A DNA stretch of 64,000 nucleotides from Arachidicoccus rhizosphaerae (GTDB lineage Bacteria > Bacteroidota > Bacteroidia > Chitinophagales > Chitinophagaceae), in NCBI RefSeq assembly GCF_900107765.1, contig NZ_FNQY01000002.1, positions 124,001 through 188,000 on the forward strand. Reading direction: 5' to 3'. How positions within the stretch are numbered: position 1 is the first letter of the stretch; every line of letters begins with the position of its first letter. The notes beneath the pieces are model-generated. The model was given only the letters and a program-made list of their open reading frames with translations, was not told the DNA's origin and ran no database searches. The position numbers were made by a program, and so were the translations under genes. Below, one piece after another: positions 432-26,590 of the stretch.

Positions 432-1934
432 ATGACACATGGATCACTCTTTTCAGGTATAGGTGGCGCCGAATTAGCAGCCGAGTGGGCAGGATGGGAA
501 AATGTATTCCACTGTGAAATAAACCCATTCGGACGTAAAATATTAGACTATTACTGGCCAAAAGCAAAATCATATGCAGACATTAAACAAACAGACTTCA
601 CTATTTGGAGAAACAGAATTGATGTACTCTCAGGCGGATTTCCTTGCCAGCCCTTCAGTACAGCCGGGAAGCGAAAAGGCACAGAAGATGACCGCCATCT
701 CTGGCCGGAAATGCTTAGAGCAATTAGAGAAATTCAGCCGCGCTACGTCGTGGGTGAAAACGTTCGTGGGTTTACTAATTGGCAGTCAGGATTGGTTTTC
801 GACGAGGTGCTATCTGACCTGGAAAATGAGGGCTACGAAGTCGCACCGTTTTTACTTCCAGCTTGCGGTGTCAATGCCCCCCACAGAAGAGATAGAATCT
901 GGATTGTTGCTTACGCCCCGGGCATCGGAAAACGACCAGGGCAGCAAGGCGAACGGGATGAAAGACGGGCAGAGCAGTTGGAAGTCACAAGGGCGGGGTG
1001 CGACATTGACAACCGTAATGAAGCAGGGTCTGTTACCCACGCCAGTAGTGATGGACACAAACCAAGGGGATTTAAAAAAGATAGATGCAAGGCGCGAGAA
1101 AGCGAAAGCGAAAGGCACAAACGGGAATGGATTTGGGATGACGGTCGGGGAATTAGCCAATCGGGGGATGCTCCCGACTCCGACAGCCCAAGATTTCAAA
1201 CGGAGAGGCCCGAACAGCAAGCAACAAGGTTTGAGCAATACGGAGAACTGGACGGGCATGTTACCTACCCCGACAGCCCAAAATTGGAAAGGCGGCCGAA
1301 CAAAAGAGGGATTAGAAGCAGCGGGGCGGAACTCCACCAACAGCCTGCCGGATTTCTTCGCCCAGACTGGCAAGACTTCCCAGCTGTCAGCCCGATTCGT
1401 TGCAAGTATGATGGGATTTCCCAAATCATGGTTAGAAATATAAAATCAGAAGTATATGCCACAATTAGAAAAGATTACACCGACAAAGATTTGCAAGAAG
1501 TGTGGGAAGCCTTTCAATCGGAGGAGATTCAATGGAAGATTGGAAGATTATACAAGATTCATGAGCCGACTATATTGCTCCAAACAGTGCAGCTATGTCA
1601 GACCCCCGATAACGCACAAGGGAAGTTTTCACCATTTGGCGAGAAAGCATCGCAAAGACTCATGCGAAAATTGCGGAGCCTTGGATCATTTGGATGTTCA
1701 CCACGTGGACGGGAACTGGAAAAACAATTCAGTTTGGAATTTAATGACTCTCTGCCACACTTGTCACATGAAATTGCATTGGCGGCAATGGAGATCCAGG
1801 AAGAATCGGAAAGGTTCGCAACATGGCTCCGAAACGAATCAATAAAAGGTTTCGGCAACGCATGGGTGCCACAAGTTGCCTATGAGATATTCAAAGTTAT
1901 TAATCAAATGGAATCACAAATAAACGTAGCGTAA
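432..1934 (+). CDS. Phage DNA (cytosine-5) methyltransferase
   Basis: A 500-residue C5-methyltransferase that would methylate cytosine in phage (and possibly host) DNA, typically to evade restriction. Visible motifs are motif I (LFSGIGGAELA, residues 6-16), motif IV with the catalytic cysteine (GGFPCQPFS, about 68-76), motif VI (ENVRGF, about 109), motif VIII (HRRDRIW, about 152) and motif X near the C-terminus (NESIKGFGNAWVPQVA, about 468-483). The part between motifs VIII and X is unusually long. It coincides with two further reading frames in the +1 phase, a proline-rich overprinted gene (574-1443) and an HNH nuclease gene (1456-1845), yet this frame stays open throughout. The target-recognition region therefore probably includes sequence shared with, or inserted by, those genes. 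The family call is firm. Whether the 140-residue insert is tolerated is inference. Confidence 0.9.
   Translation: MTHGSLFSGIGGAELAAEWAGWENVFHCEINPFGRKILDYYWPKAKSYADIKQTDFTIWRNRIDVLSGGFPCQPFSTAGKRKGTEDDRHLWPEMLRAIREIQPRYVVGENVRGFTNWQSGLVFDEVLSDLENEGYEVAPFLLPACGVNAPHRRDRIWIVAYAPGIGKRPGQQGERDERRAEQLEVTRAGCDIDNRNEAGSVTHASSDGHKPRGFKKDRCKARESESERHKREWIWDDGRGISQSGDAPDSDSPRFQTERPEQQATRFEQYGELDGHVTYPDSPKLERRPNKRGIRSSGAELHQQPAGFLRPDWQDFPAVSPIRCKYDGISQIMVRNIKSEVYATIRKDYTDKDLQEVWEAFQSEEIQWKIGRLYKIHEPTILLQTVQLCQTPDNAQGKFSPFGEKASQRLMRKLRSLGSFGCSPRGRELEKQFSLEFNDSLPHLSHEIALAAMEIQEESERFATWLRNESIKGFGNAWVPQVAYEIFKVINQMESQINVA
574..1443 (+). CDS. Overprinted LLPTP-repeat protein inside the methyltransferase gene
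   Basis: A 289-residue frame lying wholly within the methyltransferase gene in the +1 phase. It carries repeated LLPTP/MLPTPTAQ motifs, a DFLASPSV block that is the shifted reading of the methyltransferase PCQ motif, a RCYLTWK block and the terminal MMGFPKSW motif. From memory, this same set of motifs recurs in proteins annotated near phage cytosine methyltransferases in Bacteroidota, which suggests a conserved overlapping gene rather than a shadow frame. No function is known to me. The start is uncertain because the first ATG used here lies well inside the methyltransferase. It could also be expressed by frameshift from the methyltransferase. Confidence 0.5.
   Translation: MQTLNKQTSLFGETELMYSQADFLASPSVQPGSEKAQKMTAISGRKCLEQLEKFSRATSWVKTFVGLLIGSQDWFSTRCYLTWKMRATKSHRFYFQLAVSMPPTEEIESGLLLTPRASENDQGSKANGMKDGQSSWKSQGRGATLTTVMKQGLLPTPVVMDTNQGDLKKIDARREKAKAKGTNGNGFGMTVGELANRGMLPTPTAQDFKRRGPNSKQQGLSNTENWTGMLPTPTAQNWKGGRTKEGLEAAGRNSTNSLPDFFAQTGKTSQLSARFVASMMGFPKSWLEI
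1456..1845 (+). CDS. HNH endonuclease nested in the methyltransferase gene
   Basis: A 129-residue HNH nuclease. It has two zinc-type cysteine pairs near the N-terminus (CKKC, CSKQC), a second set around the active site (CENC and CHTCH), and the HNH core LDVHHVDGNWKNN followed by LCHTCH. Its frame is the same as that of the upstream LLPTP frame, and it lies entirely inside the methyltransferase frame between the target-domain motif (YDGIS) and motif X. The stop codon falls within the bases that encode NESIKG of motif X in the other frame. This looks like a homing-type insertion that kept the host gene open. The zinc and HNH residues make coding very likely. Confidence 0.75.
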   Translation: MPQLEKITPTKICKKCGKPFNRRRFNGRLEDYTRFMSRLYCSKQCSYVRPPITHKGSFHHLARKHRKDSCENCGALDHLDVHHVDGNWKNNSVWNLMTLCHTCHMKLHWRQWRSRKNRKGSQHGSETNQ

Positions 1935-2405: not shown

Positions 2406-3166
2406 AAAGAGTTCTAGTAATTATTGGCCTTATTTTGGCCGCAGCATCCTGCACCCGAATTGATGCAGGCTATGAGGGTATTTTAGTCAATCAGTACGGC
2501 TCAGAGAAAGGCGTATCAAATGTAGAAATCCGCACCGGACGTGTCTGGTATAATCCAATTACGCAGGATGTTATTGAATTCCCCTTGTTTGTCAAGACAA
2601 TTGACTATTCAGCATTTACGGTTAACGCCAAAGATGGCAGCGTTTTCACCATTGACCCTACCTTAAGTTATGCAGTTATCCAGGGTAAAGCACCCTTTAT
2701 ATACGTGAAATACCGTAAAGATCTGGACGAGATTACACAGACCACCATGTTTAACTACGTTAAAAACGCATTCCGTATTCAGATGAATAAATACACCACC
2801 GAACAACTGATAAGCAATAGGCAGCAGTTTGAGGATAGCGTGGAGACAAACTTAGGCAAGTTACTGGCAGATGATGGATTCCATTTAGAAAGCCTTACAT
2901 CCGGCCTTGTTTACCCTAAAAGTATAGTTGAAGCGGTGGACTCTAAAAATAGAGCCGTACAGGAAGCCATGCAGGCGCAGAACCAACTGGTAAGAGATAG
3001 CATTAACGCCCGCAGAGAGGTTATTGTAGCTGAAGGAGAAAGGCAGGCCAACCTATTAAGACAATCCTCTCTTACAAACCTTTTGATTCAGCAACAATTC
3101 ATTGAGAAATGGGATGGTAGAACGCCTCTTTATGGCAGTATCCCGACAATTCTAAAAAGTAATTAA
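2402..3166 (+). CDS. SPFH/Band 7 (prohibitin-like) lipoprotein
   Basis: A 254-residue lipoprotein. A signal sequence ending in the lipobox AASC (Cys at about residue 18) is followed by an SPFH domain (about 20-200) that begins with the typical GYEGILVNQYG turn and has the VRTGRxWYNP-like and FPLF elements. A coiled C-terminal helix follows, with the AEGERQA motif common in Band 7 proteins. SPFH proteins assemble into membrane rings or microdomains and often control proteases or lysis. In a phage the role is unknown. The start chosen is ATG 2402. A longer frame from 2291 exists, but it overlaps the upstream gene and would bury the lipobox. Confidence 0.85.
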   Translation: MKRVLVIIGLILAAASCTRIDAGYEGILVNQYGSEKGVSNVEIRTGRVWYNPITQDVIEFPLFVKTIDYSAFTVNAKDGSVFTIDPTLSYAVIQGKAPFIYVKYRKDLDEITQTTMFNYVKNAFRIQMNKYTTEQLISNRQQFEDSVETNLGKLLADDGFHLESLTSGLVYPKSIVEAVDSKNRAVQEAMQAQNQLVRDSINARREVIVAEGERQANLLRQSSLTNLLIQQQFIEKWDGRTPLYGSIPTILKSN

Positions 3167-3171
3167 TTCAC

Positions 3172-3190
3172 GGGGGAGCAATCCCCCTTT
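3172..3190 (+). terminator. Short GC hairpin after SPFH gene
   Basis: GGGGGA-GCAA-TCCCCC, a perfect 6-bp stem with a GNRA-type loop, followed by TTT. It lies 5 bp after the SPFH stop and before the next gene. The U tract is short, so termination may be partial. Confidence 0.5.
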
Positions 3191-3395: not shown

Positions 3396-3725
3396 ATGAA
3401 CGAAATAAAAGCAAAGGTATATACACTTTATACCGAAAATGGAAACTGGTTAGGCAAAGTGGTTTTAACCAGTGATGGGATGTTTGCAGGAGATACAGAC
3501 TGGGGCAGCCTGTGCAATACATGGCCACGAACTGGCTGTGATGATTTTAGAGAGTTCATTTGCAGACTTAATGTTGACTACTTCGCAACAAAGCTTTACA
3601 CAGGAATGTCTTTTATTCTTAATGGTAAAAAGTGCGAGCAGGCCTGTAAAAGATTTGCAGAAAAAATACTTCCACCGCTTCAAAAAGTATTGAAACAAGA
3701 ATTAGAAAACGGAATTGATTGGTAA
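3396..3725 (+). CDS. Hypothetical phage protein, paralogue A
   Basis: A 109-residue protein that is clearly paralogous to the product of 4464-4793. The two share the same length, the segments GWLG/NWLG, LTxDGMF, DFREFI, LYTGM, GKKCEQAC and FAEKILPPLQK, and a terminal tryptophan. The conserved GKKCEQAC cysteines may bind metal or stabilise a fold. No membrane segment and no known family in my view. The pair probably arose by duplication within the early operon. Confidence 0.65.
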   Translation: MNEIKAKVYTLYTENGNWLGKVVLTSDGMFAGDTDWGSLCNTWPRTGCDDFREFICRLNVDYFATKLYTGMSFILNGKKCEQACKRFAEKILPPLQKVLKQELENGIDW

Positions 3726-4463: not shown

Positions 4464-4793
4464 ATGGAACAAATTAAATGTAAATCATATCAGCTAAGGG
4501 ATGAAAATGGCGGATGGTTAGGTCAAATAGTATTAACCGAGGATGGGATGTTTTCCAGTGTAACGGATTATGGTAATCTATCAAATGTGTGGCGACACGC
4601 AGGAGGTAAAGATTTCAGGGAGTTTATTATTAGTCTAAATGTCCACTATTTCGGCTCAAAATTATATACCGGGATGGCTTACATCCTGTATGGTAAAAAG
4701 TGCGAACAGGCTTGTCAAAAGTTTGCCGAAAAGATACTACCTCCTTTGCAAAAAGCATTGAAAGAGGACTTAATTAATAACCCAAATTGGTAA
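4464..4793 (+). CDS. Hypothetical phage protein, paralogue B
   Basis: A 109-residue paralogue of the product of 3396-3725, sharing DGMF, DFREFI, LYTGM, GKKCEQAC and FAEKILPPLQKA. The two copies are well diverged but equal in length, which argues that both are functional and old. Function unknown. The conserved KKCEQAC block near residue 78 is the best place to look for a metal site or a binding face. Confidence 0.65.
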   Translation: MEQIKCKSYQLRDENGGWLGQIVLTEDGMFSSVTDYGNLSNVWRHAGGKDFREFIISLNVHYFGSKLYTGMAYILYGKKCEQACQKFAEKILPPLQKALKEDLINNPNW

Positions 4794-25190: not shown

Positions 25191-25391
25191 TTAATCTTCG
25201 AAAAAATGCTTTTCCACTAGCGACGCAACAAGGATTACTCCGCCGATAAAAGCCAATAAAAAACTTATACAACCTAGTATACAATCTGATATACTAAGGC
25301 CTCTTGATATGTGTCCCATCGTGAATCCACCTACCACTACCAAGATATAGGCTAAAACTTTCATTAAGGAGCTTTTTTTCATGTGCTTCAT
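25191..25391 (-). CDS. Two-TM small membrane protein
   Basis: A 66-residue protein with two predicted membrane segments (about 9-29 and 34-57) separated by a short loop. It overlaps the end of the glycosyltransferase gene by ATGA, so it is translationally coupled to it. Small membrane partners next to phage glycosyltransferases are common in serotype-conversion clusters, but no homology is claimed here. Confidence 0.5.
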   Translation of the reverse strand: MKHMKKSSLMKVLAYILVVVGGFTMGHISRGLSISDCILGCISFLLAFIGGVILVASLVEKHFFED

Positions 25392-26590
25392 TTTAAATGT
25401 GACGTTTCATTAATGGGATCATCAGAAAGAATCCGGTAACAATGGAACATGTAAAGTCCTTTTGCTAAACCTATTTTGCCGCCATTCTTTCGGACGTCGT
25501 TGTTGAATTCTGTGTCAAACTTGATGGAATCTTTAAACTTAGCCTTATCCCATACTTTTTTAGGGAACATCATGCAAAATCCCGCTACTCCCGTTGTTGG
25601 TTCGACCTGCGCCCAGTATTTATCTTCCAGGTCCTTAGCCAGGCTTGCATGCTTCCTGATATCGTATTCCTCGAACATCCCTTTTACTTTCTGGTGTTCT
25701 GCTCTGATTCTGTTAGTCATGCAGCCTATCAGGTCGTACTTATCCCGATTCCTTATAATAAGTTCAGAAATATGCCTGCCATAGTCTGGCGTTAAGAACA
25801 TGGCGTCGTAATCCATTAATACAATCCAGTCGTTTGAATCAGCATTCAGCCTTTCAATAGCCTGATTGATTGCCTGCCCGAACTGTTTATTGATGGAATA
25901 TGGCTGTATGTAGTGAATGATTACCGGCTCCCGGTTAATGTGCGGGTGCGTTCTGAAATTCTGTTGGTAGTAACTGTACGGTATGGCATCTATTCTTATG
26001 CCGGATATCTCCCTGGCCTGTACGATGCTCATCTGATCTCTATGAGAGCCTTTTGTTATCAGAGCCCACCAGATAGAGCAAATTCTATTGACTTCCCCCG
26101 TATTGCTCCGGATAATAACATTTGTCTCGTACATTCCGGCTCCGGGTTGAATGCCCATATCTAATGCAACTTTCATTTGCCCCTTGAGTAGTTCGGGATC
26201 TGCTTTTTTCTTTTCAATACAGGCAAATCCTTCCTGGTACACGCAATTCCTTTTAGGATGCTTTTTTAGGCTTATTCCGCCTTTGTGGCAACGGAGATAA
26301 GTACTGGCTGGTCGGATTATATCAACGTTGGCGTCAATGTAAATTACGGTGTCGTAATCTTTGAGGGCGTCAGGGATGATTATTTTTAATTTTCGCTGAA
26401 TCAGGACCGGATCTATTGGGTTTCCCGTTTCATCAAGTGATTGCGGTATTACCACCATCTGCCAGCCCTTACACGTCATATTTACATCATCCGTGAACAT
26501 AAAGCAATCAATTCCCTGAACGTATGCAGGGTTTAAAGGAATCGGATTATCATATCCGCCAACATTTACTGTATAAAGGGCTGTTTTCAT
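25388..26590 (-). CDS. Two-domain phage glycosyltransferase
   Basis: A 400-residue protein with two glycosyltransferase-like halves. The N-terminal half (about 1-210) starts KTALYTVNVGGYDNP and has IQRKLKIIIPDAL..YDTVIYIDANVDI (a DxD-like site) and the histidine-bearing HRDQMSIVQA, resembling the DUF616/TOD1 group. The C-terminal half (about 225-400) has GQAINQAIERLNADSNDWIVLMDYDAMFL, a GT-A fold nucleotide and metal motif as in family 2 enzymes. No signal or membrane span. It may glycosylate virion or host-surface structures. The fusion and its place inside the structural operon are unusual. Confidence 0.75.
   Translation of the reverse strand: MKTALYTVNVGGYDNPIPLNPAYVQGIDCFMFTDDVNMTCKGWQMVVIPQSLDETGNPIDPVLIQRKLKIIIPDALKDYDTVIYIDANVDIIRPASTYLRCHKGGISLKKHPKRNCVYQEGFACIEKKKADPELLKGQMKVALDMGIQPGAGMYETNVIIRSNTGEVNRICSIWWALITKGSHRDQMSIVQAREISGIRIDAIPYSYYQQNFRTHPHINREPVIIHYIQPYSINKQFGQAINQAIERLNADSNDWIVLMDYDAMFLTPDYGRHISELIIRNRDKYDLIGCMTNRIRAEHQKVKGMFEEYDIRKHASLAKDLEDKYWAQVEPTTGVAGFCMMFPKKVWDKAKFKDSIKFDTEFNNDVRKNGGKIGLAKGLYMFHCYRILSDDPINETSHLK

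Follow-up and report, generated by a model that had tools for sequence, protein, structure and literature searches.

A probable homing-type HNH gene nested out of frame in an overlapping two-polypeptide C5-methyltransferase of an apparent prophage

A stretch of 64,000 nucleotides from Arachidicoccus rhizosphaerae (contig NZ_FNQY01000002.1, positions 124,001 to 188,000; here called the window) was analyzed, and three overlapping frames were found on one strand near its start. Our preferred reading, to which we give a probability of roughly 0.7, is that they encode a two-polypeptide prophage C5-methyltransferase (C5-MTase) carrying a homing-type HNH gene, which would be read through in a phase that permits stops to be avoided, without the help of an intron or an intein. 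Sequence comparisons support this reading through the architecture of the locus and its conservation, the avoidance of stops, the existence of empty alleles, the use of several insertion sites and the exchange between hosts.

Results

Three overlapping frames in the window

The features discussed are the following:

432-1934, + strand: alpha, large polypeptide of the C5-methyltransferase (500 aa; PF00145, TIGR00675 dcm)
within 447-902, + strand: alpha motifs I-VIII
574-1443, + strand: beta, LPTP-repeat protein (289 aa; +1 frame; phrog_1008, E 8e-32)
1390-1431, + strand: motif IX-like ARFVASMMGFPKSW near the end of beta, by resemblance to the consensus
1422-1829, + strand: insert in alpha, limits approximate, flanked by YDGIS (1407-1421) and RNESIK (1830-1847)
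1456-1845, + strand: HNH nuclease gene (129 aa; +1 frame of alpha, that of beta; phrog_1271 HNH, E 6e-10)
1699-1779, + strand: HNH catalytic region, from HH (1699-1704) through HMKLH (1765-1779)
1854-1871, + strand: alpha motif X (GNAWVP)

The initial annotation had proposed a single open C5-methyltransferase frame of 500 codons, and this is what was found: alpha is open throughout, its residues 2-172 match PF00145 (Pfam, E 8.7e-42), it matches TIGR00675 dcm (NCBIfam, E 5.8e-36), and PCQ, ENV and GNAWVP are all present, the motif numbers being those of the C5-MTase scheme. The proline-rich +1 frame of 289 codons that had also been described is beta, likewise open and with a clear phrog_1008 match. 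An identical locus is present on the IMG/VR contig UViG_2651870123_000001 (43,306 bases). A search of the genome of the window (locus L001) showed that alpha is single-copy there and that the HNH has one match. The locus looks like part of a prophage, judging from packaging-type genes and an integrase-type gene recognized by eye farther along.

Two other observations were made by eye in the window. A 400-aa ORF (25388-26590), lying among the prophage head and packaging genes, is glycosyltransferase-like, and a pair of 109-aa ORFs that resemble each other, at 3396-3725 and 4464-4793 with around 1 kb separating them, are apparent paralogues.

Alpha and beta overlap in all the loci fetched

Beta was present in 80 of the 80 loci fetched with alpha (window included), always in +1 phase, and in the record of Paenibacillus phage Shelly the second gene was already noted as "g55 internal gene". 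Alpha bears motifs I-VIII and X, whereas the motif IX-like ARFVASMMGFPKSW, which we take to be motif IX by its likeness to the consensus, stands at the end of beta. The motifs are thus split as in M.EcoHK31I, whose beta is likewise encoded inside its alpha.

Selection on both frames was studied in 63 of the 80 loci by randomizing wobble bases. In the catalytic part, beta-frame similarity was 2.12 versus 1.14 when the alpha wobble bases were randomized (27/27 pairs, 55-70% alpha identity), with values of 1.35 versus 1.23 in a non-overlapped control that removes shared ancestry only in part. Over the C-terminal half of beta, alpha-frame similarity was 0.79 versus 0.30, a comparison of 81 pairs (94% exceeding the randomized value) without a control there. 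As the similarity of each frame exceeds its wobble-randomized value, both frames are selected; by this test dual coding is clear in the alpha/beta part, and the overlap is general among the loci fetched.

Other arrangements of the same components were also recognized by eye. In L300 (2136-3461) and L297 (2082-3458) the HNH is nested in a beta-type (LWPTP) protein bearing motifs IX and X, with alpha in another frame in L300, an AquI-like split, and in L166 (1993-3504) beta and HNH form one ORF without a stop, both within alpha.

The HNH gene is an insertion in alpha

Beta and the HNH gene share a frame, separated by a TAA, with 12 nt between the beta stop and the HNH ATG. The HNH protein of 129 codons with all its zinc and HNH residues, as first described, was recovered at 1456-1845: it has every residue that is invariant in 60/60 aligned members, window included (C13, C16, C41, C45, C70, C73, H82, H83, N95, C100, C103, H104 and H108). 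Its structure model had a mean pLDDT of 88.9; a fold search of the PDB with this model gave a best E of 0.024 and none below 0.001, so that only the HNH core is supported. The open host frame across this gene is beyond chance, since resampling the window HNH with synonymous codons produced a mean of 8.9 host-frame stops and left the frame open in 0 of 300 draws.

The distance between DG.S and motif X was 23 codons in 70 of the 75 alpha ORFs measured, and not the ten or so residues that had been taken as normal. Three other ORFs had 16, 25 and 36 codons, and the two remaining ones, the window (148) and L002 (151), are the only two of the 75 with an HNH. The enlarged spacing was correctly placed at the HNH position by the initial annotation, its length of about 140 residues being measured here as 148 codons. 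The final HNH codons and the stop fall within the conserved DNA coding for RNESIK. By comparison with these relatives, the HNH gene is an insertion in alpha; entry into an already overlapping MTase without breakage of its frame, as had been suggested, is supported by the difference between 148 and 23 codons and by the open host frame. The two roles proposed for it, that of a homing endonuclease and that of a tolerated insert, are both compatible with the sequences.

No intein or Hint family was detected in alpha (Pfam, NCBIfam) or in eight nested hosts (NCBIfam). Searches for intron RNA found none at E<=1 in positions 200-2300 of the window, where the only match was a sub-threshold one to a ribosomal leader (329-350), and nothing reached the gathering threshold in 10 loci. 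An intron or intein in these MTases was rejected, as family and RNA searches gave no such signature. The alpha insert used as a query had no match in the phage collection. A plasmid search gave a single weak match. When 395 genomes sampled from the phylum were searched, only that of the window exceeded 49 bits.

A subfamily of HNH genes nested in methyltransferases

The HNH protein alone was used as the query, in such a way that loci were gathered irrespective of the host, and the counts given are among the matches listed. A profile of the HNH applied to 328 loci found 261 HNH ORFs, 181 of them remaining after thinning at 90% identity and 101 scoring at least 100 bits. A longer ORF, always in the same phase, covers 100 of these 101 non-redundant genes, and no MTase-matching ORF covers any of the 101 in the other phase. 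Among the host ORFs, the MTase core is recognized in 83, and 98 have either this core or a GNx pattern resembling motif X, the pattern alone identifying 15 of the 98. Eight hosts without a core match were scanned, and four of them match the C-terminal part of PF00145 whereas four (L297, L127, L300 and L264) do not. Three HNH genes have neither core nor GNx pattern; as judged by eye, that of L134 is freestanding, that of L127 frameshifted and that of L300 within a beta-type frame.

Named carriers, with 80% or more of the HNH of the window covered, are the Komagataeibacter phages phiKX1 and phiKX2 and the Staphylococcus phage CUB-EPI_14. The records of phiKX1 and CUB-EPI_14 have no HNH annotated in that frame, and that of phiKX2 lists a "hypothetical protein", so annotation misses such genes.

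Nested rows with at least 100 bits numbered 98 in the host count, 94 in the site classes and tree and 88 in the analysis of start signals, the losses being probably loci dropped because they had a second, weaker HNH row, together with some rows in which the start codon was absent from its expected position. The tests of wobble identity and host-frame similarity used 101 rows of at least 80 bits, 85 of them with an MTase core.

As an observation apart, L134 (2974-3336), the sole member of at least 100 bits without a covering ORF in the host phase, has a Dam-like methyltransferase adjacent to it (by eye).

Host-frame stops are avoided in the HNH genes

In the +1 phase, a host codon combines the wobble base of one HNH codon with positions 1 and 2 of the codon that follows. 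A host stop thus requires a T before AA, AG or GA, and since every NNT has a synonymous NNC, any host-frame stop is removable in this phase. Pyrimidine-ending codons at these risk positions ended in T in 7 of 1469 cases, all seven in the freestanding L134, compared with 2564 of 5035 before other codons of the same 101 HNH genes. A more distant group of 48 HNH genes (40-60 bits) gave 404/684 at risk and 865/1412 elsewhere. Stops in the methyltransferase frame across the HNH region of close relatives had been named as evidence that would speak against co-coding, and none was found in 100 of the 101 genes, when 0.16 genes without a stop were expected (codon usage from ORFs of the same locus, or else from the 40-60 bit HNH group); the exception is L134, with seven. 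In the distant group, 3/48 genes lack host-phase stops.

These figures bear on the idea that the HNH gene is a relic decaying in a dispensable MTase and the open frames are leftovers. Decay does occur, as L127 and L143 are broken or degenerate, but residues invariant in 60/60 members and stops avoided in 100/101 need lasting selection on both frames, which makes this explanation very improbable.

It was also considered that the insert could be a domesticated dual-coding domain, functional in the alpha frame (for instance in target recognition), with the HNH frame as by-product or partner. In its favor, identity to the insert-bearing C-terminal part of alpha is 64% for L082 and 44-45% for L084, L085 and L002. 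In single-polypeptide hosts, wobble identity without the stop-risk positions, given as HNH/core, was 0.503/0.484 at 50-60% HNH identity and 0.547/0.477 at 60-75%, the latter above the control. At 60-80% HNH identity the host-frame similarity (2.08 versus 1.51 randomized) had an excess above that of the control (0.82 versus 0.53). By contrast, the wobble excess vanished in more distant pairs (0.463/0.463 at 25-40% and 0.455/0.472 at 40-50%), and host-frame residue similarity was about that of wobble-randomized sequences in the most distant single-polypeptide pairs (0.225 versus 0.219) and in distant split-class pairs (0.290 versus 0.238). The split class gave wobble identities, with rising HNH identity, of 0.414/0.552, 0.462/0.510, 0.552/0.613 and 0.693/0.615, where the control is not clean because the MTase core is itself overlapped by beta. 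An AlphaFold model of alpha, with block means of 56-96 over residues 1-165, 66 for the GNAWVP block and around 90 for the final 20 residues, gave the insert a confidence of 35-64, again against such a domain. A functional alpha-frame domain in the insert is thus disfavored by the distant pairs, the closer ones leaving room for some constraint, and we consider the dual-coding explanation to have very little chance of being correct. We read the selection as keeping the host frame open, with at most weak constraint on the host residues. The co-coding claimed at first for the whole region holds for the alpha/beta part, where both frames are selected, and is not supported within the insert, where the host frame is kept open but distant pairs show no constraint on its amino acids other than that coming from the HNH frame.

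Terminase inteins with out-of-frame HNH genes

The same arrangement was detected in three terminases. In L168 (1578-4316, HNH ORF 2461-3180) the large subunit has an intein splicing domain with an HNH in +1 phase, and terminase inteins with a +1 HNH are also present in L409 (1558-4317) and L410 (1441-3981), from Gordonia phage Clown and Synechococcus phage S-EIVl. At risk positions T was found in 0/20 codons of L168 versus 56/88 elsewhere, in 0/31 versus 26/139 in Clown and in 0/27 versus 75/123 in S-EIVl. These three cases suggest that the out-of-frame trick is wider than methylases. No publication on out-of-frame HNH genes of terminase inteins was found in the literature searched; an actinobacteriophage intein preprint cited in PMC11855218 may cover them.

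Insertion sites, host exchange and empty alleles

Among 94 hosts, the HNH gene lies before motif X of split MTases in 45, and before or after motif IX of single-polypeptide MTases in 31 and 10, with 8 unclassified; rough motif IX patterns were used, and a few labels may be wrong. When placed on an HNH tree (a quick one, with 15/98 inner branches strongly supported), the site labels, freestanding added, changed 17 times versus 48 in shuffles, so lineages keep to their sites. This clustering, together with a Spearman correlation of 0.55 between HNH and MTase-core identities, points to much inheritance with the host gene.

Exchange between hosts was also apparent. The HNH genes of L228 and L233 are 62% identical in MTases with cores of 30% identity, whereas L124 and L116 have cores 83% identical and HNH genes of 42%, and L205 and L246, with 78% in the core and 45% in the HNH, have the insertion before and after motif IX, respectively. 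Empty alleles were found in the 70 of 75 alpha ORFs with 23 codons and also around L149: among the matches listed, the 80 loci nearest its core (some incomplete) have this kind of HNH in L149's own contig only, one other L149-like locus showing a 15.7-bit HNH match outside the MTase. Of 78 ORFs from these loci, 61 have 17-24 codons from motif IX to GN, L149 has 169 and another one 50 (15 of the 78 unmeasured). The variety of sites, the empty alleles and the exchange seen between divergent MTases all point to what would be a mobile homing-type element devoid of intron or intein.

One aspect counts against this explanation, as a plain homing gene would not require so close a link to C5-MTases. 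The HNH subfamily is almost confined to MTase genes, at several sites, and the sequence and fold matches to the HNH include EcoKMcrA (E 0.001 and 0.04), as would fit a compact restriction-modification pair in which the HNH cuts DNA that the surrounding MTase protects, the linkage being functional rather than selfish. The restriction of the HNH to L149's contig among those 80 listed loci argues against such a pair, as do closely similar MTase cores bearing very different HNH genes and the presence of the out-of-frame design in terminase inteins and N6/N4 methylases, so that we hold it to be unlikely, and a homing-type element is preferred.

Signals for the start of the nuclease

Of 88 HNH genes, 65 have a Shine-Dalgarno-like sequence ahead of the start, versus 25% of random stretches, and in the split class the distance from the beta stop to the HNH ATG is 0-12 nt in 40 of 43. 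In the window HNH, with a spacing of 12, no Shine-Dalgarno-like motif was detected by the pattern used. The HNH is probably made by termination-reinitiation behind beta, as the spacing in the split class suggests.

Discussion

According to the preferred reading, overlapping frames would encode the two polypeptides of a C5-MTase, motifs I-VIII and X being on alpha and motif IX on beta, and a homing-type HNH gene would have entered between the DNA coding for motif IX and that coding for motif X, directly behind the beta stop. The phase taken is the sole same-strand one in which synonymous changes from NNT to NNC clear every host stop. The ribosome translating alpha would read through the insert, so that no intron or intein would be needed, with around 125 additional residues forming a loop in an enzyme that should remain active. 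The nuclease would be a product of its own, its translation probably starting by termination-reinitiation behind beta, and we infer that all three products are translated. The nuclease could then nick or cut MTase alleles that lack the element, into which repair would copy it, the homing step.

A broader reading, which we regard as an even bet, is that selfish HNH genes of a wide class need no intron or intein of their own in order to move, because synonymous codons keep the second frame free of stops, mostly in one phase. They would be read through in conserved coding DNA and would have reached several sites of C5-MTases as well as beta-type subunits, N6/N4 methylases and terminase inteins, the nuclease frame in these inteins being separate from the splicing domain.

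With respect to the host enzyme, PMC3404938 describes M.EcoHK31I, like M.AquI a two-polypeptide C5-MTase, as having motif IX on the smaller polypeptide and I-VIII and X on the larger. Alpha and beta share with it the separate motif IX polypeptide, although beta is a long LPTP-repeat protein, unlike theirs. Freestanding HNH homing endonucleases of T4 type provide another likeness, an HNH gene within a coding sequence; according to PMC2988022, MobE in nrdA of Aeh1 splits its host into two polypeptides, whereas the host frame is continuous here, and stop-start coupling is suggested for mobE of T4.

The closest systems are found in mycobacteriophages. Lamina13 (in which gp62 is annotated as HNH), Briton15 and Optimus have an out-of-frame HNH in +1 phase with T at 0/18, 0/19 and 0/18 risk positions; they differ from ours in that the host belongs to another methylase family (by a Bipolar gp076 search) and the HNH scores 41 bits with this profile. 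Bipolar gp076 itself matches PF01555, and the HNH genes of Bipolar and Totinger lie in +2 phase and reach 16-17 bits with the profile of the C5-MTase HNH subfamily. We take gp076 to belong to the ShiLan gp65 family, from phage clusters, and both elements to be ShiLan-type.

The ShiLan domain, and the insertion of Pacc40, were described by Arsenault, Gosselin and Gogarten (Genes 2025; PMC11855218) as out-of-frame HNH genes in mycobacteriophage methylases, so this kind of element is not discovered here; PMC9957025 and PMC12613952 add to that work, the latter with Applejack gp54/gp55, another out-of-frame HNH of a mycobacteriophage. The likeness is considerable: an HNH ORF concealed in another frame of a stop-free insertion in a phage methylase, a host-frame structure of low confidence, no signs of intron or intein, and a patchy distribution across divergent methylases (PMC11855218). 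The elements studied here are of the same kind, being out-of-frame HNH genes in methylase insertions, with hosts devoid of stops and a patchy, transferred distribution. They fall outside the ShiLan family proper, since they have C5 hosts and the +1 frame versus an apparently N6/N4-type methylase and the third (+2) frame, and, as seen through Bipolar and Totinger, another HNH lineage. The third frame reported for the ShiLan HNH (PMC11855218) agrees with the +2 phase of these two phages, and the choice of phase is thus not universal.

What goes beyond ShiLan here is the overlap with beta, a likely start mechanism, about 100 members and evidence on selection. Around 100 non-redundant members turn an oddity from mycobacteriophages (PMC11855218) into a testable rule: this subfamily keeps one phase because NNT to NNC always clears host stops, and selection acts mainly on openness rather than on the host residues. 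They also offer candidates for the start of the nuclease, a question left open in PMC11855218, namely coupling to the beta stop or an internal ribosome site. Compared with ShiLan, the C5 host, the +1 phase, the other HNH lineage, the nesting in an alpha/beta overlap and the likely translational coupling are new.
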